Positions 145 through 55,050 of a stretch of DNA of 64,000 nucleotides are shown here, piece after piece (the first letter of the stretch is position 1; the number at the start of each line of letters is the position of its first letter). Made by a program: the position numbers and the translations under genes. Source of the stretch: Agarophyton chilense (taxonomy: Eukaryota > Rhodophyta > Florideophyceae > Gracilariales > Gracilariaceae); contig JARGXX010000115.1 of NCBI GenBank assembly GCA_030374765.1, forward strand, positions 1,341,501 to 1,405,500, written 5' to 3'. The notes below the pieces were generated by a model. The model worked only from the letters and a program-made list of their open reading frames with translations, was not told the DNA's origin and did no database searches.

Positions 145-1066
145 TGTAGTGCAACGCCAAGGGCGGCGGAAACACACGAAGATGTCCGAGTCTTCCTCCA
201 AGGAGGGTAGCACGGCGACGGAGCCTCTCCGGAGTGAACACGACTACGTCGGGGTGTAAGGCCGAGGTTCACCGGCACGCCAAGCGGGGAGAGTGCGGGA
301 TGCTAGAAGGGAGCAGACCGGGTATGAGCTGTATTCCACGGAAGTGGGCAAGTCTCGAGATCGAGTAGTGTACCCACGGGAGTGGCGGTAAATACGGTAA
401 GCCGGCGCGCGACGAACGCGGGAGCGGCACGAACAACCACCCACAAAGCGAAAGGGGGAGCTACCACGAGAGTGGGTAAGCGATAAAGGGGGGACCACCC
501 AGTGGGGGCGATCGGGGGCATGGGCCACGAGAGCCAAAAGAAATATGTAGTAAACCCAATACTGGGGCGAGAACACGGCAGTCGTATGAACAATATACAG
601 GCTAGAAGCGGTGACTCTCCTGTTGACGCAGGGTGGATAAGTCTACCGTTAGTAACGCGGCTTCACCTCCGTAGAGTGTGGAAGACTCGCGAAAGCGGAA
701 AAAGACTTAGAGCCAAGAACCCTGGTTGGAGAGGTTTACTGAGTGTCAGGGCGAGATCGCCCTGGCACTATATAGTGTAGAATACTCTAAGGAGCTCCCT
801 AACCTAGTGTAATAAATCTAAATAAATAGAGAAATATCCAGCTATGCTGTGCCAACCTGTCCTGGGCCACCCGTGGTACACGTGGGTAAGTCGCACCCGA
901 ATCGGGGCCACGGCGCACGTCCGCCGGTGCACTTCGCGTACAACGCGTATACACCTGGCTACGCCAGCCCGCTAGTAGCGGTATTACTCATAGATCTCAC
1001 AAGTATCGCCCGAGGCGGAAAAACAACCAAGTCCTGGAAAACGGCCCTCACGAGGGTTGCACTTCA
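145..1066 (-). repeat. 3' LTR of element 1 (family A)
   Basis: This 922-bp terminal repeat has a partner at 11251-12172. It contains a perfect 12-bp TATA palindrome at 766-777 next to an 18-bp inverted repeat at 747-764, described separately. On the plus strand the LTR lies just upstream of the antisense ORF start at 1102, so it may act both as the 3' end of gag-pol transcripts and as the promoter of the antisense gene. Confidence 0.95.
747..777. promoter_or_regulatory. Palindromic TATA module in LTR A
   Basis: CAGGGCGA-GA-TCGCCCTG (747-764) is followed one base later by the perfect palindrome CACTATATAGTG (766-777). The TATA sequence reads the same on both strands, so it could position transcription toward gag-pol or toward the antisense ORF about 325 bp away. 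The same module is at 11853-11883 in the other LTR, and the 12-bp palindrome recurs at 28160-28171. The promoter role is inferred. Confidence 0.6.
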
Positions 1067-1082
1067 TATCCCCCTCCTGAGG
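1067..1082 (-). other. Polypurine tract of element 1
   Basis: Directly inside the 3' LTR the minus strand reads CCTCAGGAGGGGGATA, a purine-rich tract of the kind that primes plus-strand DNA synthesis. Its position abutting the LTR is the diagnostic point. Confidence 0.85.
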
Positions 1083-1101
1083 CGCGAGTAAGACATCCGT
1101 G

Positions 1102-3039
1102 ATGGTGGGCGCCGCGCCGAGACGAATGCATAAGAGTGCAACCAGCTCGCTGGGATCTACTTCATCCGATGCCAACAAACGCAGTGCGGCAAAACTCCAG
1201 TCTCCTGGCAACAACCGTTCTCAACGTTCCATCTCAACCGAATCCGCATCCTTGCGTGCCAGTCCTCCGATTCCTCGGCATCGTCTTCCGCTTCGCCGGT
1301 CTGCTCTTCCGGTCATCCGGCCTCTTCGCTCACCGATGAGCAACCAAAACAATCAACCCAACCGTCTCCCTGCGGGGTACTTCTCCGGCCTCCGGTGCAC
1401 TCCGCTTCCGCAAAGCGCGTCATCGGCTGCGCCGCAGATTCCTATCGCAAACGCGGCTGCTGCTCCGTACGGAATGCTCCCCCCGAGAGGGTGGCCGCCA
1501 TACGACATGCTTTTCGGGCGCCATCCTGGGCATCATGCGTCCGTTCTCCGGCTTGCGCCGTGGTTCCACCCGATTGCGGTGTTAAACGAAGCGCTCATAG
1601 CGATGTTCACCGATGGAAACGGGATGCTTTCGGGCGATATTCCGGCCGTGGTGACAACTTCGTTGGATTGGCAACGCCGCGTAGCGGTTCCGGTCCACGC
1701 TGTGGCGCGCCGGGGTAGTGGAACCTCCGCTTCCGCTCATGCGGCCTTCGTCCTTCTTGGCCATCAACGGCTTCGCCGGGCTCCTTTCGAATATCCTATC
1801 CCCGATGGTCTCGGCACCGACATTCGGCTTTACCGCACTCAAGGTGAGATTGGTTACGTCGATCGCCTGGCGGGTTTGGAAACACTCTCGTGGAGGGGCG
1901 TCCCGATAGCACGGCAGGAGGCCATGTGCCGGACGCGACCGATTATCCGGGCAGAATTCCGCTACATGCGTCGACTTGCGCGGGCCAACTTCCTCGCCCT
2001 GATCCGCTTCGAGCGTCGAGCACGATCCCGATTCGGGTATTTGGTCCCGTATCAGAACGTGGAGATCGAACGCCTTCGCGTGGCCGACCGACGGGGTCGC
2101 TATGTCCTCATTCCACCGTGGTGGTCGAACCTCGAGACCTGCCGGGGCTGTTACATCGAGCTACCACCAGTCATCACGTATTACGGTTCGTACCTCATCG
2201 AGGATCCCGAGTCCGGACTGTGGTCGGTGGTGATTACCGAATGGGCAGTCCGCGCGGCGGTGTTCATCCTCTGGGAGATGTATGACCAGTACAGACTGTG
2301 GTTTCTCCCGTTCCGGTTGAGGTCCGCGATTCGCAGCCTGGACCTGAGCATCCTACTTGGTGGAGTGACCAACGCCAAAGAAGTGGCAGGTCTTCTCGAT
2401 TACATCTACCAGTTAGACTGGACCACCGTTCCGATTGAACAAAGCGGGCGCACCGTGAGTAGCCGTGGTCAAGACCTGTCACCAGGAAGGCGTACTCCCT
2501 TGGGAGGTGATTTCGTATACTTCGACCCTTGGGAAGGGCACGAAATCTCCGCGGAGGAAGCGAACGAACTCCGGTTTGCACCACACCATATCCCCGAGGG
2601 GCATCCGATTGGTTTCGCAGACGCGGATGAATATTACCACGTCTACGACGGCGACGATCCAATGGTGGACAACGAACCCGACGACGGGGAAGCGTACGCC
2701 GAGGCGGAGGTCGAGGGATCCGACGTGGAAGGTCCCTATAACGCGGGGACGCCAGCCACGCCTTACGTGGATTTGGATAACCCCGGGGGGGCTGGGTCGG
2801 AATACGCGGTAGCTGGACCACCTCCGGTTCCACCGGTGAATCTCCCAAGTGGTGGGGCGTCCGCCCCAGACGATGCGAGCTCCGCTCCGGTGGGTCAAGC
2901 GGCCGTGATCTCCCAGTTCCTGCGACAGGTGGGGCTGGGGACCAACACAGCGAGTGGCGATGTTGCCGCGATGCGCGAGGCCTTGATCACCCGCCTCCAG
3001 GGAGGTAACCAACCTGGTGGCGGTGATCCGAACCCGTGA
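1102..3039 (+). CDS. Convergent antisense ORF (aORF) of family A, intact
   Basis: This 645-codon ORF is opposite to gag-pol and ends tail-to-tail with pol, about 180 bp apart. The ATG at 1102 is the first in frame; an upstream GTG is not credible in a eukaryote. Residues 1-120 are Ser/Pro/Arg-rich and look disordered. About 148-157 carry LRLAPWFHP. About 295-405 form a conserved core with YVL-x-P-x-WW, then PPV, then an amphipathic hydrophobic helix with a central Glu-Trp. After 465 the protein is acidic and Pro/Gly-rich, ending in a short leucine-rich segment. Homologues sit in the same place in elements 3, 4, 5, 6 and 7. I recognise no known domain and assign no function. It has no stop or frameshift although gag-pol of this copy is broken. 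Confidence 0.85.
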   Translation: MVGAAPRRMHKSATSSLGSTSSDANKRSAAKLQSPGNNRSQRSISTESASLRASPPIPRHRLPLRRSALPVIRPLRSPMSNQNNQPNRLPAGYFSGLRCTPLPQSASSAAPQIPIANAAAAPYGMLPPRGWPPYDMLFGRHPGHHASVLRLAPWFHPIAVLNEALIAMFTDGNGMLSGDIPAVVTTSLDWQRRVAVPVHAVARRGSGTSASAHAAFVLLGHQRLRRAPFEYPIPDGLGTDIRLYRTQGEIGYVDRLAGLETLSWRGVPIARQEAMCRTRPIIRAEFRYMRRLARANFLALIRFERRARSRFGYLVPYQNVEIERLRVADRRGRYVLIPPWWSNLETCRGCYIELPPVITYYGSYLIEDPESGLWSVVITEWAVRAAVFILWEMYDQYRLWFLPFRLRSAIRSLDLSILLGGVTNAKEVAGLLDYIYQLDWTTVPIEQSGRTVSSRGQDLSPGRRTPLGGDFVYFDPWEGHEISAEEANELRFAPHHIPEGHPIGFADADEYYHVYDGDDPMVDNEPDDGEAYAEAEVEGSDVEGPYNAGTPATPYVDLDNPGGAGSEYAVAGPPPVPPVNLPSGGASAPDDASSAPVGQAAVISQFLRQVGLGTNTASGDVAAMREALITRLQGGNQPGGGDPNP

Positions 3040-3122
3040 CGGGGCACGCGATCCCGATGAGGAGTTTTCCCTTGTGACTTAGAGTAGTATCCCGAGTGCT
3101 CGGTATTCCATCGATAGCTTCG

Positions 3123-3128
3123 AATAAA
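3123..3128 (+). terminator. AATAAA poly(A) signal for the antisense ORF
   Basis: AATAAA lies about 84 bp after the aORF stop, in the short gap between the two convergent genes. Its placement suits 3'-end formation of an antisense transcript. Single AATAAA motifs also occur by chance, so this is suggestive only. Confidence 0.4.
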
Positions 3129-3218
3129 AACCAAGTGACTTGTGTAACCCAAAACCTTCCTTCACCAGTCTGTTCTCAAGCAAACCTATTTCTCTTTTCT
3201 CTTCCACCGAGGTGGGTG

Positions 3219-5216
3219 TTATCCCACCTGGGCTTTAACAACCGATGCTGGGATTCCCGTCCGCGTTCTGCGGTGATATGACACCACCTTCGAACGTGGG
3301 AGGTGTTCCATCGGCTCATCCGAATCCCATTCGGGCCCTCAACCGTACCAACGGACGAGGTATTGAATATAACCATCCGGATGGTATGAGTGCTCCACTA
3401 TGTGGTCGACCACGAACTCCTTCTCGTAGACTTCCCGCCCTTGCGGTGTACGCGTCACCGGACCAAACCGGTGTACGCCCGCAGGTGCGTGTGGGCTACT
3501 GTGCCCTTCCCCCGAGGGGTCCATGGGCTGGAGTTGCCTTTCCATGCCCTGGGTAGGGGAACGAACCGGGTTCCGGGTTGCCTTGGCCGCTTGGCGGGTT
3601 GCTTCCGCCAAGGCCTCATGACAAAGAGCGTCAGTTCGACGGCTTCGGCCGGAGGCCTTCCCGTGGGGCAATTCTCCCAGTTTTTGGGTCGGAATGCTTT
3701 CCGAGAGTTCTCGTGCAGAGGCCACCCTTCGGGGGAACGCGAACTCATCCCAAGGCTGGGTTTCGCGGTCGCGTTCCGCGAGTCGTCGGGGTGAAATCCG
3801 TCGCGACGGTGCTGGAGTTGACGCGGGAGGCGGTTTCATCACGGGGCGTCGTGCCTTGCCAAGTGAGCCGCCTTGGGCGTTGATTGGCGTATCTCCCGAG
3901 CCGGGTGCTGTCTGGTCACGTGACACGTCCGACTGATGGCTGGGAGTACTCCGCGCCGTGCTGCGTTCCGCCTCCTCACGTGAGGGCGTGTGCAACGGCG
4001 CTGCCGGTATGTCTGCTCGCTTGGGCGACAAAGTACCGCGACGGGCGTGCAACTCCGGGTCAACCGTGCCTTCCTCACCGACGGGCGGCGAAGTGCGCGG
4101 CGACGAAACCCTGCGGGGAGCGAGTTCGTCCTCAACTATCCCTTTCGAGGGTTCAACTTCACTCGGCGACGAGGTGCTTCCGTCCTTGACGGGCACATTC
4201 TCCGGGGTGACCGGTGCGCCTTCGACAACGCTGTTGGGGTTAACCGAGACACTCGGAGTGCGTCCGCCACTGCGCGCGGGTTCTGAACCAGCGTCGAGCG
4301 TGCTGGGTGTGAATCTCCCGTCTGCTACGGTGTGCTTGCCCGGCTTAGCCGGTGTGTCCTGCCGTACAGTACGAGGGACCACTTCCGATCGATTCGGTCT
4401 AGAGGGGCCTGCGAGGGCGTGCTCTAAGTTTTCCAGCGTAGCTGGTGTCGACGAACCGTGACCCACGGGCTGCGGGTAAACGCTCGACGGCACAGCCGGT
4501 CCAGTATCGCAAGGGCGAACAGCATCCTGCGGCGTTTTCGATTTCGCTTCGGCGAGAGGGTTTCCACTACGTGGTGCGTCCTGTCGAGTATAGTCCCCGT
4601 GGGGAGTTCGATCAGACGCAGATACGATGGCGCTTCCCATAGAGGGTTCAGCAACGGCTGTAGCGCGCCAATGCGGAGATGGCACGTCGGTAGACGGGAC
4701 ATCCGGATCACCGTTGTTCTTGCTGGTGTGTCCAGGAGTCCGTGCACCACGGTTGTCATGACGCGACGAAGCGGTTTCCGTCTCTCGACGAGAGTTATGA
4801 GCTTCCTCCCCCTCCTGAGACGGAGCGGCATGGGGAGTGGTTGAAACGCCCAACGGGCGGGGGTAGACACCGCGCCGTGGCGTGAGAGAAGAGAGGCCAT
4901 TCTGGCCTTGGTCCGATAAGATCGGCAAGTCAGAGAGTCCCCGGGTAGGGTGTGGTAACGCAGAAGGTCTGGAAACCACGGCAGTGGGCTGAGCCACTGT
5001 TGTGTGCCGAGCACCATCATCCTCAGAGAGGGACTGTTGACCCATTTCGGTTACTTCCAACGTCGGTGGCGGGGCGAGTACAACGCCGTCGCGGGAGATC
5101 CGCTCATGAGCGTCGACAATTTCCACCACGATGGTGTCGTCTTTCACCGAAATGACTTTGTAAGGACCGTCCGCGACGGAAGAAAGCTTGTGCTTCTTTT
5201 CCTTTTCAGGGTTCCA
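3219..5216 (-). pseudogene. pol: Element 1 pol: disordered tail and chromodomain
   Basis: Pol continues in the integrase frame as an unusually long Pro/Ser/Thr/Arg-rich segment of about 550 residues with no visible fold, then a chromodomain with the words YLVRWYG and, after a TGA at 3339-3341, GPEWDSDEP and SYHRR. The chromodomain aligns with that of element 6 near 63170-63330. In chromoviruses such a domain is thought to direct integration by reading histone marks. The frame ends at TAA 3219-3221. The stretch opens after a TAG at 5217-5219 that separates it from the integrase, and the TGA cuts the chromodomain, so this copy could not make a complete tail. Confidence 0.82.
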
Positions 5217-6035
5217 CTACTCCTTACGGACGAAGACGAAGTCACCGGCTTTGATTGGCGGGGCCTTACGGCGTACGCGAGAGTCGAAATCACGCTTGTA
5301 AGCGGCTTGGGCACGAGCCATCGAGCTTCGGGCAACCGGGATCAGCTTCGTAAGCCACTCTTTCCACTTGTGGCGATATTCCTTCACGGAAGGGAACGCA
5401 TCCAGCGTGGGCTGGGGTTCTAACGCGACAGCGGGTGGAGGGCGGGATAGGACCAATTCAAATGGAGTTAAACCCGTAGTACGGTGTACCTGCGTACTGT
5501 ACGCGAACGTCAAGGCGTCGGTATATAAATCCCATGTCTTTGGGTGATCGGCAACGTAAGAACGGAGAGACGCTATTAGCGTTCGGTTAAACCGCTTCAC
5601 TTGCACATTACACTGGGGGTGATAGGTCGTTGTGAACAGGTTCTTGATGTCAAGAATCCTGCACACGTCCTCGAAGAATCGCGGTGCGAACTGTTTTCCG
5701 TTATCGAATAGAAGATTAACCGGCGGGCCGTAGACGAATACCCAATGGGTTACAAATGCTTGTGCAACCGTGAAAGCGGATATCTTCCGTAGAGGTACGG
5801 TCCGAACCAGTTTTGAGAAACGATCCGTGATAACGAGTAAAAACTTATGTCCACGTCGTGTGGTGAGGAGCTTACCGAGAATGTCAATGGCGACAAACTC
5901 GAGAGGAGCCCGTGCCGGGAATAGTTTCAACTTCGTTGAGTACTTGCGAAGTTTCACCCGATTCTTAGCACATTCTGTACAAAACCGCACCGTTGCGTAG
6001 CAATCCACCGCCATGGCGGGCCAGTAGAAATTCCT
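5217..6035 (-). pseudogene. pol: Element 1 pol: integrase
   Basis: The segment holds the Cys pair of the zinc-binding HHCC domain (CTEC), the catalytic core with FVAIDILG and LLFDNGKQF, and the downstream LTPFELVLSRPPP region. The first two acidic residues of the DDE triad are present, but the expected glutamate in the NGQVERFNR-type motif is lysine (codon AAG, near 5600). It is in the same frame as RT and is separated from it by TGA 6036-6038, at a position where element 6 has arginine. Known family role: insertion of cDNA into the chromosome. This copy is predicted inactive because of both the stop and the missing glutamate. Confidence 0.88.
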
Positions 6036-7880
6036 TCACAAAGTGAGGTAGAGCTTCCGTCCACCGGCGTGTCCACCAAGTTTTGCATAGTGCGATAGAT
6101 GCAAAACTCTAGACTGTAGAGTATGCGGCACCACGACTTGTGGGGATGACTGAACCTTCCTGACGAGGTATCCAAGATCGTTCACCTCGAAAGGGAGTTG
6201 TGCACCGCCATTAAGCCAGGCGCGAATCTTCGTACAGAAGGGGTCACCCTGCTGTTCTCTGACCATCTCCTCCGGGGGTATCGGCACAAAATTACCCGGC
6301 GGGGGTTTCTCTGAGTCGTCCGAGACGAGCAATGCGTCAATATCATCATCCGATTCTGGGCCTTCGTTCCATTTATCGTGTAACCAATCCAGGTCCTCCG
6401 GTGTTCCATCGTCTACGACGAAGCAAGGTATATCCTCGTCATCGACGGCTAGAGCTTCCCCATTCGTGGGTAAACGCGAGAGCGCGTCCGCTTGCGCGTT
6501 CTGAGTGCCCTTCTTGTAGATCACATCAAAGTCATATTCCGCGAGGCGGAGTCTCCAACGCATTAAGTGGCCTGACGGTTCCGAGATGGTCATGAGCCAT
6601 CGTAGGGACGAGTGATCCTTGTAAACGGTAAAGTGCACACCCATGAGGTAGGGGCGGAGTGTAGAAAGGGCCCACACAATTGCGAGGCACTCCTTCTCCG
6701 AAACGGAGTAGTTCCGCTCGTGGACATTGAGCCAGCGTGACCAGTACCCAATGGGTTTGCGTTCTCCTTCGGGAGTAGTTTGAAAGAGCGCACAGCCTAC
6801 CTGGTAGTCGCTAGAGTCCGTGTCCACGGAAAACGGTAGTCCGGGTTTCGGTAACGATAGAATCGGTGCTGATGTGACAGCCTCCCTAAGGGAGTTAAAA
6901 GCATCCGTCTGGACGGACGTAAAGGGGTCCAGTTTAGGTGGTTGAACTTTCCGCAGAAGCGCGTTCAAGGGGGCCGCGATGTCAGCGAAGTTAGGGATAA
7001 ACCGTCGGTAGACGTTGACCAATCCTAGAAAGGAGGGCAGTTCCGTCTGGGTAGCGGGTTCTTTCGCCTTGCGAAGGGACCTCACTCGAGCTTCCTCGAT
7101 CATTACATGTCCAGGACGGATAATGTGCCCGAGATACTTCACAGTATCCGTAAAGAACTCACATTTCCTCAGTTTGAGGGTTATTCCAGCATCACGTAGC
7201 GTGGTCATTATGTCCCTGACATGGGTGAGATGGTCATCCAGATTGTCTGAGAATACAATGATATCGTCCAAATAGACGAGGCAAGTACACCACTTAAAGC
7301 GGGCCAACAAAATGTCGATAGCACGCTGAAAGGTAGCGGGAGCATTGGTTAGACCAAAGGGCATCCGTTTGAAACGGTAGAGTCCCGAGTGACAGACAAA
7401 CGCAGTCTTATCTTGGTCCTCCTCCCTAACGGGAACCTGCCAATATCCCCAATTGGCGTCCAAAGCCGTGAACACGGTAGCAGTGCCGAGAGAGTCGATG
7501 TACTCATCCATTCGTGGGATCGGATACACGTCCTTGACGGTAACATCATTCAAGCGACGGTAGTCGATGCAAAAGCGCCAGGACCCATCGGGTTTCGGAG
7601 CCAGTACCACTGGGGATGCCCACGGCGACTGAGCCGGTTCGATCACTCCAGCTCGGAGCATTTTGTCCACTTGGAAATGTTCCTCTTCTCGAGCCTTGGG
7701 GCCTGCCCTGTAAGGGTGTTGAGCCACCGGTCGGGTGTTCGGCATTAAATCTATCCGGTGTTCCGTTGTATTTATCTCACCAAGAGAGCCATCCCACATT
7801 GTGGTAAACTCCCGTAACATCTCACGCAGACTTTCACGGTGTGACTCCGGTACATGACCGAGGTCGAGTTCCTCGAGTTC
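6036..7880 (-). pseudogene. pol: Element 1 pol: reverse transcriptase and RNase H
   Basis: Typical Ty3/gypsy order is visible: the RT entry motif with RFCIDYRRLN, FTALDANWGYWQ, KRMPFGLTNAP, the catalytic YLDD near 7265, then the RNase H words DTDSSDYQVG, SEKECLAIVWAL and DALSRL. The RT catalytic aspartates are intact. The segment is open for almost 600 codons but is bounded by a TAA (7881-7883) on the protease side and a TGA (6036-6038) on the integrase side, both in the same frame. These are single-base nonsense changes in one long pol frame rather than gene boundaries. Confidence 0.92.
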
Positions 7881-8972
7881 TTACACGGGGTCTACCCGGT
7901 CGTAACTCGTCGGAACGGGCTTCTTTTCTGTTCCGGCAGGTTGCGATTCCGAATCATTCGGTGATTGGACGGCAGTTTCCTCCCCCTCCTTAGAGTGAAC
8001 GAGACCGAGGACTTCGGCAGCGGTCAGCCTAGTGGGGACCGTCGCGGTGGGGTGAGGCATTACCGATCCAATATCTTGGTTTTTCACCAGTGACTGGGGG
8101 GTGAAGCCCAGATTGGCAACGAGCACGGTGAACGGCTTGTCTTGGACAATCTGCGCGACTCCATTCGCCACGGCGAGTTGATATCCATCGTACAGAGATG
8201 AGAGAGGCTGAATGACTCGTAAACCGTGTTGACGGGAAGTGACACACACCCATACTTGGGACTCTGGCGGGGTTCGGACAGACGCAGCCACTCGGAGCTT
8301 GGTAGACTCCCGAGAAGCGGGTGGAGGTTCCTGCGTGGCAGGAAGCGGTACGTGCTTCTTGGAGGCACGCCGCAGCGGACGACGGACAATCGGGACCGAC
8401 GAGCCGTCTTCCATCTCAACACGCTTTAAGCGGGGCCTTATGGCGTCAACGAATCTGTCATAGAAGTCACATCCCAAGATGATGGGGGCAGCCAATTTCC
8501 GGCATACAATAAAGTCGAGTTTCACCACGAAGGAGCCCAAGCGAACGACGAGAGCGACGGTTCCAACCGTTGACAACCGGTTGTTATTCGCGTCCGCGAC
8601 GTCGGGCGCCCCGCCAAGGCGGATCTGAGACCGCAAGGGCGGGGGCAGCAGCGACTCCACGATGAAATTCGGACCAGCACCTGTGTCCAAAACAGTAAGG
8701 ACTCGAACCATAAACTGGGTAGAAAGGCCAAGGTCGGCATACACCTTGTAATTGCGCTTGGCCATTACTAAGACTCTATCCGGGAACCGGCGGTTAAGAA
8801 CACGTTTCCACGGTCGACGTAGAACACCAAAGTGTTCAGAGTCCACGTCTGAGACGGCCTGTTTCCTCGTGAGGATTGTGACCGGGGAGCGAGGCGGAGA
8901 CGCCTTGGGCGTCGTCAACCTCACTGTTGGGGACGCCTCTCCCGAAGGGGAGACTCCCGAAATCAGTTTTCC
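7881..8972 (-). pseudogene. pol: Element 1 pol: N-terminal region and aspartic protease
   Basis: The protease active site VLDTGAGPN is intact near 8685, followed by ILGCDFYDRF, the second conserved loop of gypsy proteases. The reading frame is open across the gag stop and is -1 relative to gag. It starts without an ATG, so expression is expected through ribosomal frameshifting at GGAAAAC (8966-8972 on the plus strand coordinates). Homologous sequence starts the same way in element 6. A TAA at 7881-7883 interrupts the frame before RT. Confidence 0.88.
8938..8972 (-). promoter_or_regulatory. Candidate -1 frameshift signal, gag/pol of element 1
   Basis: In minus sense, GGAAAAC (8972-8966) directly precedes the gag stop TGA, and pol is open in the -1 frame from the heptamer onward. 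After a 12-nt spacer comes a perfect 6-bp hairpin, TCTCCC-CTTC-GGGAGA (8953-8938). The same heptamer and a GC-rich hairpin at the same 12-nt spacing occur in element 6. The heptamer is not the textbook X-XXY-YYZ form, so the mechanism is inferred from conservation and frame. Confidence 0.6.
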
Positions 8973-11090
8973 TGAGTCCCATCCGCCTGGGGTGGGGCCT
9001 CAGAATCCTGAACCACTAGCAATGGGGCGCCAGCGGCGGGGTTTGAAGGAACGGGGGGGTGGTCGGGAGCCTGCTCGGCAGGGTAAAGCAACGCATTGCG
9101 CGGTTTCGCCTCCGGAATACTCCGTGGAAAATCGATCTTCGCTCGAAGATACGACGTCATCGGAACAATCCGCTTTTCCACTGGGGTCAACGCCTCATAA
9201 TTACCGATCACTCGGGCTACTTCTCTCATGGTGAGGATACAGTCCGGTGAAATGTGACCGTGTTCGTAGCATATGTAGCATATGAGTCCGGGGCGCGAGG
9301 GCTGCAAACCGGAGCGAGCATCCGTGAACTTCACCGCTTGGCGGGGATCATTGCATCCAGGGCGACTCTGTCGGAGCGCACCGTTTGAATACGGGATGCG
9401 GGATCCGTAAACACGGGGAGAGTCTGCATACAGCAGGGGTCCATCCTGGGCCGTGTCATATGAGTCGTCCGTCGTAGACGGTAGTTCGGTTGTCGGGACC
9501 GAATAGATATCGCTTCGGGCGAAGTGTACGTTGTAGTACTCCTGTTGAGGGCGCTCACTCGCAACCAGCGATAGGGATGGCGACTTCATTTCCATCACCA
9601 ACGCCTTGGCGGTTCGCGACCTGTGTCCAGGGGCACGAGCTCTTAAAGAGTCACCTTCCGCTTGCGCGTGTTGGACCAACTCCAGATACGTTGTCTTCCT
9701 TCGGTCTTCCCGGTAACGGGTCACAAGTGTTCGGATAGCGGGGTCCAGTCCATCGATGAACATGGTGCAGCGCTCTCCGGCGGAGTGTACGTTCCCACTA
9801 CGGTGCAAAGCCTTGTTCAGGCGCACCGAGAATTCGGTTTCCGTTTCTCCAGACTTCTGGCACGTATCGCGAAGAGCGAGAATAGCCGACTGAATCGCGT
9901 GATTAGTGACGTAGGATCTCAAGAGGTATTGTACTGCTTTTGGCCAGCAGGTTACCCCTCCTTCGGAGGCTCTAGACGAACCTCTTACAGAGTTGTATTG
10001 ATTTTCGGCGAGGCCTTTCATAAAGTAAGGGAGTGCAATAAACGCCTATCCTTCGGTCATACCGAGAATATCCGCTTCGGCGACGAACCTCGCAAGGAAA
10101 TCCAACACCAAAATGGGGTCTTCTCCAGAAAAGCTCTGGTTCCTGAGGGACAGTTGCATACGCTTTATGCAATCTTTCACTCTACCTGTGCCACGGGGCG
10201 TGCGATCCAAAGAGGAGTTCTCTAGCCGATAGTATCGGTAAGAAACCACCTTCTTGTACAGGGGGTTGGTGCATTTCAGCTCCTTCAACCCGGAGTGTTT
10301 CCTTCCCTTCTCGCGGGCACGGATCACACCTTGGGTGGCAGACGACCGTTTAGAACGGGATGAACGCCTGCGATGACCATCGTCAGAAGACGAATCTGAC
10401 GAGTCCGACCCATTTGAATGGTGAGAGCCACGCAACGACCATGAGGAGTTCGACGAATCCGAGTCATCGCTGTCATGCTTTCCACGCCGACGGCGGGTAT
10501 CGTCCTTTATCTTCTCGTGTTTCGCTTGGTGCGACACAGCAACCGGCTTCTCCGGGACGTCTCCCATCAAGATGGTTTGCTCTAACGTCTGGAGACGGGC
10601 GCTAACACGATTGAATCGGGTCTCGACACCTTCTACGTAAGCGGCGGGACCACAAAACATTCCAACAGGGTGTCGACGTCCGCCCGCAACAAGCGGAGGT
10701 CGTCAATCACTTCCTTCATAGAAGAGCCATTACACCTGGAACGCAGGGCTTCGAACTCTTCCACGAAGGCATTGTGCGCTTCCCGCATTACGCGGATCTG
10801 CTGCCTCACACTTGAGTTGGTGTCGATGTGGAACTCGTTTTTCCGGTCCTTTTCGTCGGCGGGGCCGGGTCATCCACGGCAAGGGCCAGTCCAGCACCAG
10901 AATTGGGTCCATTCTTCGACGCCTCAGGCTGTAGCTTGTTGTTTTTGGAGGAGTTCGACCCCTTACCCTTTCCTTTCGGAGCGGCTTGAGGTAACAGCGG
11001 GGGAACCCTTCCAGGGTCCGCAGGCATCACGTCATTGACGGAACGGCTCAGCGTGATCGCCGGTTCCGCTTCCGACGGTAGTCGTGACAT
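8963..11090 (-). pseudogene. gag: Element 1 gag
   Basis: The likely start is the ATG at 11088-11090, beginning MSRLPSEAEP. The protein has a variable Lys/Ser N-terminus, a coiled-coil-like stretch, an acidic Ser/Asp tract next to an Arg/Ser/Lys tract (near 10300-10450), a capsid-like region that includes VQYLLRSY, and one zinc knuckle CYICYEHGHISPDC (C-x2-C-x4-H-x4-C) near 9275. Reading moves through three frames, with frame changes near 10800 and near 10660, and a TAG at 10046-10048 where element 6 has glutamine. Gag would form the particle and bind RNA; this copy cannot encode it in full. Confidence 0.87.
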
Positions 11091-11247: not shown

Positions 11248-11250
11248 GTT

Positions 11251-12172
11251 TGTAGTGCAACGCCAAGGGCGGCGGAAACACACGAAGATGTCCGAGTCTT
11301 CCTCCAAGGAGGGTAGCACGGCGACGGAGCCTCTCCGGAGTGAACACGACTAAGTCGGGGTGTAAGGCCGAGGTTCACTGGCACGCCAAACAGGGAGAGT
11401 GCGGGATGCTAGAAGGGAGCAGACCGGGTATGAGCTGTATTCCATGGGAGTGGGCAAGTCTCGAGATCGAGTAGTGTACCTACGGGAGTGGCGGTAAATA
11501 CGGTAAGCCGGCGAGCGACGAACACGGGAGCGGCACGAACAACCAACCACAAAGCAAAAGGGGGAGCTACCACGAGAGTGGGTAAGCGATAAAGGGGGGA
11601 CCACCCAGTGGGGGCGATCGGGGGCATGGGCCACGAGAGCCAAAAGAAATATGTAGCAAACCCAATACTGGGGCGAGAACACGGCAGTGGTATGAACAAT
11701 ATACAAGCTAGAAGCGGTGAGTCTCCTGTTGACGCAGGGTGGATAAGTCTACCGTTAGTAACGCGGCTTCACCTCCGTAGAGTGTGGAAGACTCGCGAAA
11801 GCGGAAAAAGACTTAGAGCCAAGAACCCTGGTTGGGGAGGTTTACTGAGTGTCAGGGCGAGATCGCCCTGGCACTATATAGTGTAGAATACTCTAAGGAG
11901 CTCCCTAACCTAGTGTAATAAAGCTAAATAAATAGAGAAATATCCAGCTATGCTGTGCCAACCTGTCCTGGGCCACCCGTGGTACACGTGGGTAAGTCGC
12001 ACCCGAATCGGGGCCACGGGGCACGTCAGCCGGTGCACTTCGCGTACAACGCGTATACACCTGGCTACGCCAGCCCGCTAGTAGCGGTATTACTCATAGA
12101 TCTCACAAGTATCGCCCGAGGCGGAAAAACAACCAAGTCCTGGAAAACGGCCCTCACGAGGGTTGCACTTCA
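11251..12172 (-). repeat. 5' LTR of element 1 (family A)
   Basis: This is the 922-bp partner of 145-1066. It contains the same palindromic TATA module at 11853-11883, which in this copy would drive gag-pol on the minus strand. The right end abuts the GGATG target duplication. Confidence 0.95.
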
Positions 12173-17734: not shown

Positions 17735-18241
17735 GATTCGACCGTCACGGCGAAGTACAAATTGCCTCACACCTTCCTGGGGGTCTGGCCCTTATTGGAT
17801 TTATAGGTGAATACCGAATTTTTCCTTTATGGTAAGAACCTCGTGATTATCAGCATTCTCATGGCATAGATACTAGCGTTGCCGTTTCCGACATGTCGGC
17901 ATCTCATGAAAAATCCAGAGGACGGGAGTTCTTAGTTTTTCTTGTTACAATTGGGCGCGACGGGGCATCGCATCGCCACCATCCTCGAAAGTATGAGTTC
18001 GTATGAGCTACCCCTTGGCGCTTGGTTGGAAATTAATTCACCTACGGTACTGTACGCGTACCAGGGGGGTGTCATCGACGCTTTCCCTATTCCCCGCTAT
18101 TCTTTTGGCGACCCTACGCGCGTCTTCCGCCGTAAACTACGGTGCGCGCTTCGTCCATTAGGGCTCACGTTGGTCATCCGGCCCGATTCGGTTCCATTTT
18201 CTCTCCTTCCCGTCGTTGTATTCCTCAATTAGTCGTGCGCG

Positions 18242-20321
18242 ATGCCGAACTCACCTTATAATACCGTCAGATATGCCACTATCCTTCCGGACTTTGTGGC
18301 TTCCGTCGGTTCCCCTGCTGATTTTCCGGCGGACTAACCTGTGGGCAGCGGCGCGGTGGCTTCGAACAACCAAGTGGGGACCTCCTCGGGATTCCAAGTA
18401 GGTCATGAGCGCCACCGGGACCGTTATAAACATACCATCGTACGAGACCCATGGGCAGTGCATCATGCCATTCTGCCGACCTCTGTGGAAGAATACCAGA
18501 AGTGTTTTTACGTTTATCTCGGTGCCCGGAGGTTTGCTAAGATACCCGATTTTCAGAGGGACAATAAGAACGCGCGCAACGTTTCATGGTATAGCCGTTG
18601 TTTGCATTGTTCTGTGGATCAGCGTTCAGAGACGCGCTGTCATACCTTCATCCAGGCGGACATGCCGTATGTCCGTTGTGAGGAGGAAGCAGAGTACCAG
18701 GTTAGGGTGAACAAACTCCTTTCCGACCTATAAGAGGACTTCATCTCGCCTCACGTGAGCTTTCCTCCGGCTAGTCAAAACCTCTTGGCGCTCATGTGCT
18801 TCAGGTTGCCGTATGACCGCCTGTTTTGGATGTCCAATAGGGCCTGTGGGAACGAGATGCATGAGCCCGATGGTAGTTTGCTCTAATCCCTTGAGTTCTT
18901 CTTCTGTTAGCACCAGTTGAAGTTTCACGACATGAGCGCAGACAAACGTCCTTAGCTACACTTATCGCTTCCTGCGTGGATGAGAACCAATTGGCCATGT
19001 ACTGGCGTATCTCGCCGCTTCTTTTAATTAACACGCCGTCCATAGTGGCGTATCATTTGTCCCAACTTATGGGTGATGACAACGACCGAAGGTCTTGGTT
19101 GTCCTCGCAGGTACTCTTCGTTGAGTTCGGCGTGATGTCCCTTATGGCCGTCTTGGATACCGCGAAGTACGGAATCCGTGGTAATTTCTGTTTGGATGAT
19201 TGGAGGGTATGACACGACGAGAACATACCCGGTCCTAGAAATCGTCTAATCCCGCTTCCAGACATCATAATCCGTTTCCTAAGAAACATAGGCATACAGA
19301 ATATCGTCCGAGGAACCTTGTTTGCCGTCGAGGAGACTGCGACCCTTTCAGATCATGTCCTACAGGTAAACTTGAGCAGGACTCCCAGGTTTCTTCGGTA
19401 TGGTCACGATTCCGACTCGTTCACGCTGACTCCGCTTCATCCGCAGGGTAGGGATGACACTCGTCTGTATCCCTTCAATCATTTGAGGAGTCAACCATTG
19501 GAAATTCCGAGGCGTCATGTGCCTGACTAGTACCCGAAGGCCATTGGTTTTGATTGCCTATGCTTGGAGCCCGATTTGGAGGCCACGACGTTGGTTCCTG
19601 CTGGTATGTCCTGTGGAGAGTCCTTCGGTGAAGATCCCTTCATCATACCCGTGGAGGGCGTTAATCTTCCGGTCGAGTCCACTGTTGTGTTTCCGACCGC
19701 CTCCTCTCTTCCAGCTCCTCCAAACGCTGCTCCCTATGATGAACTCTCATATGAGCCGCCCGTCTCCCAAATGGACATCTCTCCTGGAGAGGTTACTGTC
19801 GAAGCCGCTAGTCCTTAGGTGATGTGATGGGTCAGACTTCCACTGTGAACGTGGACACCGCTCAGTCCTCTCCAATGTCGCATTTTCCCGCTTCGGTCAC
19901 GGCTGCTGCCCCGGATCTCCGTCATGACTGCCGTACCATTGGTATTACTGCCTCGATGGACATTGCGATAGTACTGAGAGATGCTTTCTCCTTGGTGCGT
20001 CACTCGGCGCGCTACACCTCGATTGTTCAGCAGGGTGAAGATCTAAAGACGTCTATGTTCAATCTCCTGCAGCAAAATGCACAAATGATGTCCAAGAGAG
20101 CTACTGCCGACTTGGATGCCCGGTATGGTCTATATTTGAGAAACCGGGAGGCTTCCAAGGGTGACAATAGTTTCTCAGGTGGATCTCCGCCGAAGAAGCT
20201 TCCTCGGCTTGCTGATGCCGGTCCTATTGGTTCAGTATGCTCTTCGGGTGATCCTAGCCCCGGTTTTGCTCCTGCAGATTCCAATGAGGACGACGGGGTT
20301 ACTCTTGCGCCGCCACAGTGA
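18242..20321 (+). pseudogene. Antisense ORF (aORF) of family C, decayed
   Basis: This plus-strand coding remnant is opposite to gag-pol of element 4. It starts at ATG 18242 (MPNSPYNTVRYATI), which aligns with ATG 53387 in element 5. Recognisable words follow in shifting frames: FIQADMPYV with a downstream E-rich run (near 18650), matching YIQPMYPSDLPYV of element 3; TPSIVAYHLS and a hydrophobic stretch VLFVEFGVMSLMAVLD (near 19030-19170), matching the core of the family A and B aORFs; and a C-terminal coiled-coil-like part (DLKTSMFNLLQQNAQ, near 20040) ending at 20321. Stops and frameshifts break it. The function is unknown. Confidence 0.72.
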
Positions 20322-20476: not shown

Positions 20477-21319
20477 TCAGAGCTTCTTCAGGTCTTCTTC
20501 AGGTGTCGCCTGAGGAATGACGTTTTTGCCTGATGTGGGAACTACGTCGAACTGTCGTTTCGGGAGGCGTTTCGAGAAGCGCTTTGGTGTTACTCGGGCC
20601 AATGGTTGCCCCCTTCTACAGGCTGCGCTCCTTTCTTCCGATTTTGAGGCAATAGCGGGCGATAAATTCTGCCGGAATGGTTTGAGTCTTTTTCCAAGTG
20701 TCTTCCTTGGAAGTGTAGCCAAACCAACGGACGCGATAGCGCATTAGCCAATCTTCTCTCTGACTGGCGGAGATGATTCGTTCAATAACGTAATCCTATT
20801 GGTATTCCTCCACCGAAAGGAGAGTGCGGTCCAGAGAGGCGAATCCATCGGCATCGGTTGGGAGAGATGCGGCATCGTCATTAGCATTGATAAATGGTTC
20901 TATTGGGACAGTCGGGTCCGCATCTTTTGCCTTAGGAGCTGTGGGGACCTGAGCCTCAACCTGAGATCGTGATGATTCCGTTGGGCCAAGGGGCTGGGAC
21001 TTTGGTGGTCCGGGGGAACTGGGTGCTCGTGTCACGCGATCAATGAACAGGGTGTCCTGTAGACCATTAATTGGTACCGTAATTGCGTCTTGACTGGCCG
21101 TAAGGACTTATATGGTTCCGTCGAGTGGGGTAGTAGTTTCCGCGTAGTATCTTCGAGGTCATCACTGTCTTTCAGTGGCCGGTCCAGGTGAACCAATTCT
21201 CCTTCCATAAAGGTAGGTGTGTTCCAGACGGCTCTGTCGAAATTAACCTTGTAACGCTGTTGGACAATGGTCAGTACAGCTCTAGCGGATTGGATATTGC
21301 AGTAAATGTGTCAAGGCAA
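20477..21319 (-). pseudogene. pol: Element 4 pol: tail and chromodomain
   Basis: In minus sense, the end of the integrase linker (21061-21319) is followed by a Pro/Ser-rich segment and a chromodomain with YRVRWFGY and EDTWK near 20700. It aligns with element 5 at 54186-55050. A stop near 20796 separates the tail from the chromodomain. Confidence 0.72.
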
Positions 21320-26787: not shown

Positions 26788-26869
26788 TTATACTTAGCCA
26801 AAAAAGTATTCTATCGGTGTTCCGACAGTGCAAAAAACTACAACAAGATTCGAGATACTATTACCAAAA

Positions 26870-27740
26870 TGGAATAGGAACCTACCGATTGCTTTTTTTG
26901 GTCCCACAAATGCGTTCAATATTCACGTTTCGGTATGGGAGTGTACACCGGATCCGCAATCGCGCTAGCCTTCCAAAGCGCATCATTGCCAAAAGATTCG
27001 AAAGCTTCAATAGTTGTATAAAATGGAACTCAGCCGGAATTATCAGCCGGACCAAGAAACGGCGCCCTGTTGCATAAATAGAAGCGCTCTCCATGGGAAA
27101 GTTTGCAAACCCGCTAGGCAGTTGAAAGTACCAATTTCACCTTGGGGGCGGTACAGCTTGATGTCAAAGTCCAGACCATTGGGTTTACGAAACTCAAACG
27201 GAGCCCAGTGAAGCTGTGAATTTTCATGGAGAAAGAAAGTCGCAATGCGCGAAATGTACCAATTAGCTGCTGTTCTGGCTTATCTTATGAAATGAAATCG
27301 CTACAGGGTTTCCCACAGCCTTCACAGTGGTTGCGGGGACCGAAATATCTCCCGGTAATATTTTGATTCGATTGGTGTACATCGCAAAACCTACATTTTT
27401 GAACAACGCATACCAGTGGAAGCATGGCGCCAGCCGCAGGATAGGGGCGTCCAAGGTAGTTTGAAGACCGACAAGCTGCTTATACGATTGCTACACCAGA
27501 TGTGGGTATTGTTCCACCAAATCGACCCCCGTGTTTGTGACTCGTGCAACTAACGCTTCTGTGGTCGCACCACTCTGCTGTGAGGGCACCGAAAGAAATC
27601 TCACGGGACGGAATCCGGAGAAATCTTTTGGCAGGTATTGTTGGTCTGATCGGAGATGTTGTTGTTCTCGCCAATTGTACGGAATGTTGTTCATAGTTTT
27701 GGAGACGTTGAACGAGAAGCCGCTAGTGAACGCCAAAAAT
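26870..27740 (-). pseudogene. aORF remnant of element 7
   Basis: Three blocks align in order with the family A aORF: YLPKDFSGFRPVRFLSVPS (near 27640) with RLPAGYFSGLRCTPLPQS; ILRLAPCFHWYALF through ILPGDIS (near 27370-27450) with VLRLAPWFHPIAVL through MLSGDIP; and LAMMRFGRLARLRIRCTLPYRNVNIER (given here in part, near 26890-27000) with the ALIRFERRARSRFGYLVPYQNVEIER region. Stops and frame changes lie between blocks. No gag-pol of this element is visible. The block order makes the homology firm. Confidence 0.78.
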
Positions 27741-47360: not shown

Positions 47361-47921
47361 GTGGGACCTTATAAGGTATTGATCACATCAGACCACACTG
47401 TTACGGTTGAACAAGATGAAATACCGAATATGATATCAATTGACCGTATTACGGTAGCACCTGAAACGGTTCAACATCGCATTGAGGCAGACACCTCAGC
47501 CCGAGAGCCCAGAGCTGTAGCTCTGCGCACTCGACCCTCGGAGGACCCCACCTTAATTGAGGTGAACGATGACCTTCAACGTGATGATCCGGATTACAAC
47601 CCTCTAACAGGGACGAAAATTGAACCTCAAACGGTAACAGCGGGAGCTCCCGACCTGGCTCCCACACACGAAGGTCCCAACTCGCAACAAATGAACCCTC
47701 GAGGTAGCGTTCCCCCGAAGGATCAGGACCAAACGTCAGATTAATTTCCCGTTGACCGTCTGGTGGGCCACACGCGAACCAGTAATGGTCTGAAGTACAC
47801 CGTAAGGTGGTACAGCTGGGGGCCAGAAGGGGACGCCCTCGAACCCCCAGTCGCAATACCCCCACACTTCCGTATCAGGTATTGGCGCCGTCGTAAAGAG
47901 CAGATGCCTGCAGAAGGCTAA
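47361..47921 (+). pseudogene. pol: Element 3 pol: tail and chromodomain
   Basis: The same frame continues as VGPYKVL and an acidic/Pro-rich linker, is broken by TAA 47742-47744, and ends in a chromodomain-like segment with YTVRWYSWGPEGDALEP (47820 region) to TAA 47919-47921. The linker is much shorter than in element 1. The aromatic residues of the chromodomain cage are only partly recognisable. Confidence 0.75.
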
Positions 47922-48157: not shown

Positions 48158-50640
48158 CTAGCCCCCGAATCCGGGAGTAGAAGAACCTGTCGGTTGAGGA
48201 GCAGTGGGATCAGGAGGACCCGTGTTACTGACTACCCACGAAGGAAAACCGACAGAAATGTTGAAAGACATCGACCTAGGAGGTAGCAAAGGAGCGGTAG
48301 CCTCGCCACTGGGGAGAAAAGTTGAAACCAACATAGGTTGGACGGGAGGAACCGCCGGAGCGGGTTGCAAAACCGCAGGGTTCAAGTTAGCACCTAGAAG
48401 GCGATCCGTCAAAGGATCAGATGGCGCAGCAGCAGAGATGCTTGCCAGATTGGCAACCTGACGGGTGGCCAATTGGTACACGTCCAACTGAAACTGATTC
48501 CGGAACTCACCAAGTTGGTTCAACGCCTTCATTTATTGCGCATGGCGCGGCAGAAAACCTTCAAGGAGCGTTAGTGCCGCAACCATGGAGGTAGGCCCAG
48601 CCCTCTAAAAGTTGTTGACGCAAGCCTGGCGAATTCGAGCCAGCAAACCGACCACGGCCGGAGAATCCATCATACGGTGAGGCGGAGGACGAGCAATACC
48701 CGCCAACAGAGGTCGAACCGGACCAGCAACCCGCGAGGAGCTCGGTTGAGTAGGAGTCACACCCGTAGGGATAGGCGACTTACGACCTTGAGGTAACGGC
48801 TCGGACGGGAAGGGACCAGCATAACAACCAACCGGTGTCTCCGTGGTACCTTGATACCGTTCGGGGCTCGCGGGAGCCCCATGAACAGGAGGCTCCCCGG
48901 GATAATATTGGGCGTGGCGAGGCACATTCTCCCAAGTTGCGGGATCGAAAGGCTCCCAATCCTGATGAGAATCCTAATGGTAATTCTTGCTCTGCTCGAG
49001 ATACGATTGTAAATTCTTAACGGTAAAATCGGTCCCCTGAACGATGTTCTCGTAACGAAATCGGAAAATATCCTGGACAACTCTCGAAGGTATGAAGAAG
49101 ATGGGGCCTACAGGTTGAACACCATCTCGGTACATGTCAGAGTCGGGACTACGACAATCCCAATCGATACCGTAAAGGGCGGCCTCCAGAGCCAGGATGG
49201 CAACCAACACGGTCCACTCCAAGAGGGAAATCGACCAAATGAGATAATACCGCTCTAGGTTCCGGGAAATATGACACCTGAAGTACGCCAAAACCGGCGG
49301 AGTGGGCACGCTCAGCGACAACGGAACCTCATAGGACTCCCACCAATCTGGTCGAAGCACGTACCAATCGCGTCTACCCTTCGTAGGTTGTGAGAAGTAC
49401 TCGACGTTATGAAACATATGCATAACGCGAGTGAAAGAGTTGCGAGTGCGAACGCGACTCTCCGTCGCTGCATCCTCGCCCCACCTACTTTGGTCAGCCC
49501 CATTGATAGTTGTGAAAGGCCGTTTCAGGGAAACGAAGTCAGGTGAAACCGGAAGGTAAGTTTCCGGAATAGACGGGTACTGGCACACTCGCACCACCAA
49601 TCGACGGTAATAATCCAGCTCCGGTTCGATGCACACATACGGCAAGTCGCTCGGATACATCGGCTGGATGTAATAGCTCAAAGTTGTATGACGTGCCGAC
49701 TGTGGTAATATTCCATTCGACCCTGACGAGGTTGAGACTCTTGGTCATGTTTCTTCAAAAGCAATGGAACGGAGCGAAGGCGCTCGCAGTCCCAACGGGA
49801 CAAACCCAAGTAGGTATCCAATTGTGGTCTGGTAAAAGCTGCCGGCAGTGATGAATTCCCCATCGCCACAGGCCAATCGTGCTTCAACAGGTCATTGTAA
49901 GTCACCTGGTCGAAGGCAATACCAAAAGGTCCATACTGATTCGTTGTCCGGTCCGCCGCACCAAACGCGGGATTATGAGCCCAATTGGTTCGTGTGGTCG
50001 GAGGAAGTCCACCACTGTGTTGGTATGGGTCAGCCAGAGTACCAGGGGAGAACTGTGTCGCAGGGACAGGCACGCTGCGAAAACCAATGTTGGTAGGCGT
50101 TCGAGAAGCCGAGCGAGTCACCCTCTTAGTAATACCATCGCGTCCACGGCCACACGATGGGCCGCTACCTGACATGGTTAGGAAGGCAGAAGCTCGAACC
50201 GACGAACGAGGTGATGACTCGACCTCCATCGCCGCGTGGAACACCAGCGGGTGTTCATCCTTCTTAAGTGACGCCTCCTCGGTCCGTTCCGAGGAGAAGG
50301 CAAACGTATCCAACCTTTCCGGTAGTACAGACATCGACCTTTCAGGTGCAACAGTTGCCATTGTACGGGCGCGAGCGACTCCAGACATTTGAGGTATCGT
50401 GAAGCTGGACCAATACAATCTTAAGGGCATAACTTCAGGCGTATAAATCCCCTCGGAATCGCCGACTTCTTTGACCTCAATGGTAACCGGCCCCTCCCGT
50501 CTCTCGAGCGCTGGTGCTGCCTGTGGGGACGACCCACCCCTTCGAGGCATCGGTGGCGAATCCACGATACGGCGCGAGGTGCGTCGACGTGGCACCGAAT
50601 GGGTTCGCACGCATGAGTGGAGGCGTTGCGATCCTTTCAT
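48158..50640 (-). pseudogene. Antisense ORF (aORF) of family B, decayed
   Basis: The start is ATG at 50638-50640, just inside the 3' LTR, on the strand opposite gag-pol. The N-terminal 320 codons (to about 49680) are Arg/Ser/Thr-rich. After a frameshift near 49680 the core reads YIQPMYPSDLPYV, then WYVLRPDWW, PPVLAY, and a hydrophobic helix WSISLLEWTVLVAILALEA (49150-49680), aligning with the family A and C aORFs. The rest stays in one frame, with stops at 48974, near 48605 and near 48533, and ends at 48158. It converges with pol, about 240 bp apart. About 825 codons before decay; no known domain. Confidence 0.8.
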
Positions 50641-52876: not shown

Positions 52877-53386
52877 TATATCTCCCTCCTTAGGATTTGG
52901 GCATCACGGCGAAGTCCAAATTGCCTCACACCTTCCTGGGGTCTGGCTTTAATTGGACCTATGGGTGAGCCTCAAATCTTGCTTTTGGGGTCGAAACGTC
53001 GTGATCCTCAGCGTCCTATTGGCCTGGACACGAGCGGTGACGTGCCCGACATGTTAGCGTCATATGACCAATCCGGGGGTCAGTTGCTCTCGTTTCCAGT
53101 GGGCACGGAGCGTCGTATCGCCACCATCCTAGAAGATACCTGTTCGTAAGAGCTAACCCTTTACGCCAGGTTGACAGTTAAGTCACATAAGGTACTGTAC
53201 GCGCACTGGGGGGGGGTTCCTTGCCGCTTTTCTTATCCTTCGCTTTTTCTTTGGCGACCCTACGCGCGTCGTCCGCCGTGAACCACGGTGCGCGCTTCGT
53301 CCATTCGGGGTCACGTCGGTCATCCTGCCCGATTCGTTTCATCTTTTTTCCTTCCCGTCGCGGTATTCCTCCATTGGTCGCACACG

Positions 53387-54012
53387 ATGCCGCAATCGCC
53401 TTATGAGCCCGTCGGATATGCCAGTCTCCCTACGGACTTTGTCGCTTCCGTCGTTTCCCCTTTCCGTTCCACGGCGGATCTGCTCGAGGGCAGCAGCGCC
53501 ACGGCTTCGAGCGACCAAGTGAGGAGCTCTTCGGGATACAAAATGGCTTATGAGCGCCCCGGGGACCATTACGGCCATATCATCGGACGAAACCCACGGG
53601 CAGTGCGTCACGCCATTCCCCCGTGCCATTGATATTACTTCCTCGATGTACATTGCGACAGTCTTGAGTGAATTTGGCTCCTGGGCGCGTCGTTCGGCGC
53701 GTTACGCCGCGGTTGTCAAACAGGGTCAGGATCTGAAGACCACCATGGTCAATTTCCTGCAGCAGAATTCCCAAGTGATGTCGTAGAGGGCTACTGCCGA
53801 CTTGGATGCCCGGTATGGTCTAAAATTGAGTGACGGGGAGGCTTCCGATAGTGACAATAGTTCTTTAGGTGAATCACCGCCGAAGAATCGTGCTCGGCTC
53901 GCTGGGGCCGGTCCTAGTGGTACAGTAGGCTCCTCGGGTGACCCTAGTCCCGGTTTTGGTTCCTTCAGGTTCCAATGAGGACGACGGAGCTACTCCTGCG
54001 CCGCCCGAATGA
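53387..54012 (+). pseudogene. Antisense ORF of family C with internal deletion
   Basis: ATG 53387 opens MPQSPYEPVGYASLPTDFV, aligned with the element 4 aORF start. After about 80 codons the sequence jumps to the C-terminal coiled-coil-like part (DLKTTMVNFLQQNSQ, near 53735). The whole conserved core present in element 4 between about 18476 and 19935 is missing. A TAG at 53784-53786 and a 1-bp insertion near 53965 follow. The junction carries a short CCATT microhomology. Confidence 0.75.
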
Positions 54013-54185: not shown

Positions 54186-55050
54186 TCAGGTGTGGCCGAA
54201 GGAATGATTTTGTTCCCTGATGCATGAGTTACGAGGAACCGTCGTGCTTCGGCGAGCCGTCGTGTCGGGAGGCGTTTTAAGAGGCGTTTCGAGATTATTA
54301 GGGCCAATTGCTGCCCCCTTCTGAAGGCTTCGCTCCGTGCTGCCCATATTGCGCCAATATCTGGCGGCAAATTTAGCGAGAATGGTTTGAGGCTCTTTCC
54401 AAATGTCTTCTTCAGCTGTGTAGCCCAACCAACGGACGCGATAAAGCATAGTTCCATCTTCTCCCCGACCGGCGTAGATGATGCTCTCAATCAAATATTC
54501 TAGTTCGTCTTCATTCTCTGGAAGGAGAGTGTTGTCCAGAGTACCGAATCCATCGGAGTTGGTTGGAAGAAATGGGTCATCGTCATTGGCATTGACTCGG
54601 GTTCATGGGGCTAGTCGGGTCCACAGGAACTGTCTGAGGGGGTGTGGGGACTTGAGCATCGACCTGAGGCCGAAGTGATTTCATTGGACCAGGGGACTGG
54701 GAGTTTGATGATTCGAGGGAGCTGGAGGCTCGTGTCACCTAATCAATCGATACGGTGTCCTGTAGGCCGTCAATTAGTAACGTAATGGTGAGTTGATTGA
54801 CCTTAAGAACTGTGTATGGTTCCGTAGAGCGGGTTAAGAGCTTCCGCGTAGTGTGCTCGAGTTCTTTACTGTCCTTCGGTGGCCGTTTCAGGTAAACAAG
54901 TTCTCCTTTCCCAAAGGTCGGTGTGTCCCAAACGGCTATGTCGAAATTGACCTTGTAGCGCCGTTGGGCTTTGGTTAGTAGAGCTCTGGCCGAGTGGATG
55001 ATGTGGTCGATGCGTCGGCGCGAGTAGCCGGTCGCCTGGGTAGGAGTCAT
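54186..55050 (-). pseudogene. pol: Element 5 pol: tail and chromodomain
   Basis: The integrase-distal linker (QRRYKVNFDIAVWDTPTFGKG, near 54940, given in part) and a Pro/Ser-rich tail lead to a chromodomain with MLYRVRWLGY and EEDIWKE near 54420. Frames are broken between 54494 and 54739. Confidence 0.8.

Follow-up and report, generated by a model that had tools for sequence, protein, structure and literature searches.

An antisense gene in a red algal retrotransposon

Does the long open reading frame (ORF) that lies opposite gag-pol at the 3′ end of a red algal retrotransposon encode a protein of its own? The question is raised by a 64,000-nucleotide stretch of the Agarophyton chilense genome (contig JARGXX010000115.1; hereafter the window), in which an earlier note had described large antisense ORFs next to the 3′ long terminal repeat (LTR) of several elements. 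We found that a chromodomain Ty3/gypsy lineage of Gracilariales has a third gene, antisense to gag-pol, with the chromodomain on one side and the 3′ LTR on the other.

The reference copy of this gene belongs to element 1, a complete minus-strand element at positions 145 to 12172 (Table 1). Its 922-bp LTRs, 97.9% identical to each other, the 5-bp target duplication GGATG, the polypurine tract (PPT), and the presence of a reverse transcriptase (RT) ahead of an integrase and of a chromodomain identify it as a chromodomain Ty3/gypsy element. A putative primer-binding-like stretch lies downstream of the 5′ LTR. The antisense ATG is located 36 nt inside from the 3′ LTR, and about 180 nt separate the antisense stop codon from the facing chromodomain, in agreement with the tail-to-tail, LTR-adjacent arrangement initially described. 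The chromodomain of this copy contains an in-frame stop at 3339. The LTR ends of the element (145-1066) form an 11-bp inverted repeat with one mismatch (TGAAGTGCAAC / GTTGCACTACA), which exceeds the usual TG..CA.

The four families announced for the window, A, B, G and H, are all represented in it. The claim that every element with a visible 3′ end (elements 1, 3, 4, 5, 6 and 7) has a large antisense ORF proved too broad: the copies of elements 3, 5, 6 and 7 are damaged, and for element 4 we found only a family-A-like fragment, at 26843-27622, that is assigned to no element. As the gene is intact only in element 1, the case for its conservation rests on the genome-wide families.

Homologous families across the genome

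We searched 79.8 Mb of genome sequence in 135 contigs. The window protein had at least 68 matches, 25 of the 68 rows counted being devoid of internal stops. Other queries yielded at least 151 matches (family B piece of the window), at least 71 (D), at least 108 (G) and at least 150 (H piece). Reading of representatives distinguished at least eight diverged families with homologous antisense proteins (A, the window copy; B, L026; C, L039; D, L040; E, L051 and L054; F, L043; G, L058 and L056; H, L057 and L059). Over aligned codons, families A, C, D, E, F and G share 32 to 53% identity, and the values relative to A are 53% for D, 46% for E, 37% for C, 36% for G and 22% for B. The distant families B (19-23%) and H (about 21-25%) nevertheless gave significant matches, with BLASTP E values of 8e-10 between the A and B copies of the window, 5e-13 between A and a longer B copy, 2e-17 between H and B, and 2e-5 between H and A. 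A profile of B and H matched a profile of A, C-G and their relatives with a probability of 97.8 and E=1e-12 over 247 columns.

Similarity between the families is thus above chance, in line with the shared motifs listed in the earlier note (YVL-x-P-x-WW, PPV-x-x-Y and a hydrophobic helix with E-W). The motifs themselves are looser than described in two families, reading YIGIPEHW, PPAISY and EF in G, and YLSLP, PSVVAY and EF in H. In 20 aligned members, residues E321, P355, Y360, W374, L390, D395 and G420 (numbered as in the window protein) show no variation wherever they are present.

The surroundings of the gene also recur. In families A, B, C, D, G and H the gene is followed by an opposite-strand chromodomain, accompanied in the downstream flanks of C and D by an integrase on the same strand as that chromodomain. 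The downstream flank of F contains an integrase and a 31-residue chromodomain-like match. The location between pol and the 3′ LTR is defined by both LTRs in A, by the LTRs present in the window in B, and by the pol or the PPT side only in the remaining families. By eye, a C-rich tract resembling the PPT complement is found about 15 to 90 nt upstream of the ATG in A, C, D, E and G; LTR ends were confirmed against a second LTR in A and B only. Immediately before the PPT complement, the 3′ LTR ends of A, C, D and E contain a short inverted repeat, CCCTCACGAGGG or a variant of it, which is weak in C; by eye, its arms appear constant while its loop varies.

Presence beside the reverse transcriptase

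We then paired 74 RT rows with 75 antisense rows located on the opposite strand at a distance of at most 9 kb. The last of 75 listed RT rows was left out as a fragment of the preceding copy, and the antisense rows comprised 68 from the search with the window protein and 7 added from another search. An antisense match was paired with 55 of the 74 RT matches, mostly at about 6.7 kb from the antisense start to the far end of RT. For 5 of the 19 RT matches without a listed partner we read the expected site, and the antisense gene was found at all five: three are truncated or frameshifted copies of family A, and two represent the new family E, one of them (L051) with an internal stop. The gene is therefore present in most of the copies considered and is not a one-off transduction; absence from most copies had been named at the outset as an observation that would count against a real gene. 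Three family A RT copies at G000 C22:1515165-1534305, with very long open frames of 1805 to 1842 aa, lie on the same strand 7 to 10 kb apart and perhaps form a tandem or nested array.

Selection on the antisense frame

A ratio of nonsynonymous (dN) to synonymous (dS) change near 1 had likewise been set as a counterargument, and we obtained about 0.46. In family A, NG86 estimates over 28 pairs gave dN 0.025, dS 0.055 and a ratio of 0.455. The corresponding pN/pS values were 0.465 in A (codon-resampled confidence interval 0.36-0.61; 8 of 68 matches), 0.486 in the core of B (0.40-0.60; 24 of 30 fetched copies) and 0.546 in D (0.39-0.76; 3 copies). These samples are small and closest to the query, consisting for A of the first 8 of the 68 matches and for B of the copies left after six of 30 were dropped for unequal length. 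Five codon blocks of A ranged from 0.30 to 0.55, and single pairs from 0.30 to 0.68 in A and from 0.17 to 1.32 in B.

As a frame control in family A, the ratio was 0.90 to 1.18 in the remaining two antisense frames and in two sense frames; in the third sense frame it was 0.56, an effect of the wobble column that this frame has in common with the gene. RT served as a second control, with dN 0.059, dS 0.106 and a ratio of 0.56 over 209 codons. The antisense gene thus appears about as constrained as RT, within the limits of a thin control made of one pair of family B elements of the window.

Neutral decay of copies after insertion should raise within-family ratios above that of the active lineage. 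Nonsynonymous and synonymous changes numbered 99:78 among singletons and 23:15 among shared changes in A (0.43 and 0.52 relative to the expected site ratio), and 123:58 and 41:30 in B (0.62 and 0.40). This split gave no clean separation, and the expected overestimate was not seen in A.

Between families, dN was 0.44 to 0.80 among A and C-G and 1.17 to 1.30 relative to B, and dS was at least 1.9 or saturated; protein identity remains at 19 to 53% where synonymous sites are close to saturation. RT is the slower of the two proteins to change: between A and E, identity is 79-80% for RT and 51-55% for the antisense protein. We consider it close to certain that the ORF is a real protein gene under selection. 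The earlier claim of a gene conserved over diverged families is borne out by the eight families, in which the gene is maintained by purifying selection and probably serves a function.

Relatives and age of the families

In database searches, the best relative of the 1102-3039 product was P0002 (BWQ96_03215), annotated in Gracilariopsis chorda as a hypothetical protein, with 44% identity over 95%. A 211-aa unnamed product of A. chilense (P0004) and two proteins recorded without a source organism (P0003 and P0005) were also found, and in the searches made relatives were confined to Gracilariales and these two records. A tree built on the core places the Gracilariopsis protein and P0005 with family E (support 0.96), nested among the families. 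Unless horizontal transfer took place, this position indicates that the families diverged before these species did. The identities of the antisense proteins and of the integrase/chromodomain regions agree at their extremes (A-D highest, A-B lowest), with A-G as a misfit and with different regions compared; it is plausible, not proved, that the antisense gene and the element descend jointly. For annotation, these results mean that public records of Gracilariales carry relatives of this gene as "hypothetical protein" or "unnamed protein product".

Features of the protein

The protein is predicted to have a helical core at residues 127 to 500 and disordered tails. The conserved hydrophobic helix with E-W, at 373-395, lies inside the predicted folded core, and the best 19-residue hydropathy ranges from 0.88 to 1.75 across eight proteins, two of them partial. 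A basic run, PPKKRARL, is found near the C end of family H. The initial reading had recognized no domain, and none emerged here: 0 of the 20 aligned members matched any Pfam family at E≤0.1 (families B and H being represented by core parts), the only row among PDB sequences had E=1.2 and was taken as chance, fold comparison gave no match, and the viral contigs searched contained no relative. Identity with TRP28 was ruled out, as PF04195 had no match in the 20 members.

A putative antisense start in the LTR

A perfect 12-bp palindromic TATA, CACTATATAGTG, is present at 766-777; both LTRs of element 1 hold it, as do all eight family A copies read. Its TATATA begins 333 nt upstream of the antisense ATG, and such a palindrome occurred in 2.2% of 2000 simulated sequences. 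The exact site was absent from the flanks read in B, C, D, E, F and G (150-380 nt in E and G); other 12-bp TATA palindromes occur in the B flank of the window and in the F flank. The palindrome could serve both directions. In family A the ATG is so close to the 3′ LTR that the LTR is the most likely place for the antisense transcript to begin.

Other elements of the window

Element 1 interrupts a family B element, whose sequence at 12173-17187 resumes at 1-144. The antisense gene of element 5 lacks reference residues of about 147 to 601, and that of element 7 contains an internal stop. Compared with its relative element 3 (18473-19931), element 5 is short of about 1.46 kb at 53618-53621, a loss that removed the core of its antisense gene; element 5 is possibly a non-autonomous derivative. 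The ORFs at 29228-29848 and 35617-36060 resemble pieces of Tc1/mariner-type transposases.

Table 1. Positions of the antisense genes and associated features in the 64-kb window
Feature	Position	Strand	Remark
Antisense gene, family A, element 1 (P0001)	1102..3039	+	645 aa, intact open ORF
3′ LTR, element 1	145..1066	-	97.9% identity to 11251-12172; GGATG flanks the element on both sides
5′ LTR, element 1	11251..12172	-	Pair of 145-1066
PPT, element 1	1067..1078	-	Sense AGGAGGGGGATA; touches the 3′ LTR, before the antisense ATG
Chromodomain, element 1	3222..3428	-	Tail-to-tail with the antisense gene
gag-pol, element 1	5217..10660	-	Split over several ORFs (integrase, RT/RNase H, protease-like, gag-like)
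Antisense gene, family B, element 6	48158..50640	-	Three pieces (49678-50640, 48974-49660, 48158-48532)
Chromodomain, element 6	47745..47915	+	Convergent with the family B antisense gene
Antisense gene, family H, element 3	18149..20312	+	Nearly full length, frameshifted
Chromodomain, element 3	20652..20795	-	
Antisense gene, family H, element 5	53243..53960	+	Two ends remain, core deleted
Chromodomain, element 5	54345..54500	-	
Antisense gene, family G, element 7 (L056)	63661..64000	-	C-terminal part, runs past the window
Chromodomain, element 7	63159..63368	+	Pfam Chromo, 29.6 bits versus cut-off 25.1
Fragment of family-A-like antisense gene	26843..27622	-	No element assigned

Possible roles of the antisense protein

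What might the third gene do? In the reading that we favor, with a probability of roughly 0.55, it encodes an accessory protein, produced from a 3′-LTR antisense transcript, that acts on element expression or chromatin. The antisense mRNA would begin in the 3′ LTR or just inside it and be translated into the protein, helical and folded in its core and disordered in its tails. This protein would act in trans in the nucleus, where its targets would be the DNA, RNA or chromatin of the element itself, with regulation of expression, silencing or integration as the outcome. In outline, the gene would operate much as its antisense counterparts in Grande and Retand do. By analogy with the plant elements Grande and Retand, a nuclear regulatory role would have about even odds; the PPKKRARL run of family H, together with the reported nuclear location of the Grande gene23 product, is a weak hint at a nuclear site (PMC7264820).

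The product occupies the retroviral env position and has a conserved hydrophobic E-W helix, features that would suit a structural or entry role of an unconventional kind, as an Env-like protein or a component of the particle, in place of a regulatory one. Identity with Env was rejected on the antisense orientation, since env is not antisense to gag-pol, and on hydropathy maxima that, as the one measure taken, suggest no clear membrane span; with the hydrophobic helix inside the predicted core, we regard a role of this kind as unlikely. Alternatively, the antisense RNA itself might be functional, pairing with genomic RNA to tune silencing or copy number, with the protein secondary. In its 3′ part, the inferred sense genomic RNA does overlap the gene, and such effects have been discussed for these elements (PMC7264820). 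This proposal is nevertheless quite improbable, given that synonymous change outpaces nonsynonymous change within and between families and that the protein is conserved despite near-saturated synonymous sites.

A protein acting in trans against host silencing, or against another defence directed at the element, would be expected to evolve quickly, as a factor in conflict with the host, and the antisense protein does change faster than RT and is found in most copies seen. Weaker constraint would also explain the faster change, however, and no match to any known family points to such an activity, to which we assign a low likelihood. We give almost no credence to the idea that the frame is open by chance or mirrors a gene of the sense strand, in spite of the ratio of 0.56 in the sense frame sharing the wobble column and of opposite-strand open frames of 238 to 306 codons in some copies: no minus-strand ATG ORF of at least 110 aa exists inside 1102-3039, the Gracilariopsis and Agarophyton relatives are recorded in the antisense frame, and a chance ORF is ruled out by the homologous proteins for which that frame is open in eight families.

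A bolder version of the favored accessory-protein reading is possible, if rather doubtful. The product would be an obligatory trans-acting factor with an undescribed fold, involved in anti-silencing or integration control, and antisense genes would have arisen independently in red algae, flowering plants, fungi and deltaretroviruses. If true, an antisense gene by the 3′ LTR answers a general need of LTR elements.

Comparison with known antisense genes

Flowering plants have provided most of the additional antisense genes known in LTR retrotransposons, and the question of what these genes do is still open (PMC7264820, PMC11963269). The arrangement in the red algal elements is of a known kind, as antisense genes lie between pol and the 3′ LTR in Grande, RIRE2, Retand, PvRetro13 and Boty, and it fits the positional class aORF-3R, antisense to gag-pol between pol and the 3′ LTR. 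In contrast, the protein family and the host lineage appear to be new; the literature searched, which was mainly open access, gave no account of a comparable gene from red algae.

In the Retand lineage of flowering plants, the antisense ORFs encode a Transposase_28 (PF04195) protein of unknown function, and the region between POL and the 3′ LTR measures 2.9 to 6.6 kb, with tandem arrays in about half of the cases (PMC11963269). Retand elements are non-chromoviruses, whereas the algal elements have chromodomains, and the PF04195 domain of the Retand protein has no match in the algal members. Grande gene23 is reported to be driven by an upstream promoter and to encode a nuclear protein (PMC7264820). 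The brtn gene of Botrytis Boty, an additional antisense gene in a gypsy element outside plants, is likened to the algal gene by description (PMC7264820, PMC8365987). Maize Grande gene23 and the rice RIRE2 aORF-3R resemble the algal gene in being antisense between pol and the 3′ LTR; they belong to another host kingdom, and the likeness is one of position and description. HBZ of human T-cell leukemia virus (HTLV) is a basic leucine zipper (bZIP) protein, whereas neither bZIP nor another Pfam domain was found in the algal members. Like APH-2, it is encoded in deltaretroviruses by an antisense gene with an antisense promoter in the 3′ LTR (PMC7264820, PMC11963269).

A protein without a Pfam match, at the same position, in chromodomain elements of red algae and under selection over families that appear to predate the split from Gracilariopsis, makes convergence likely. 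The Gracilariales elements thereby offer a second system for testing the role of antisense genes in LTR elements.
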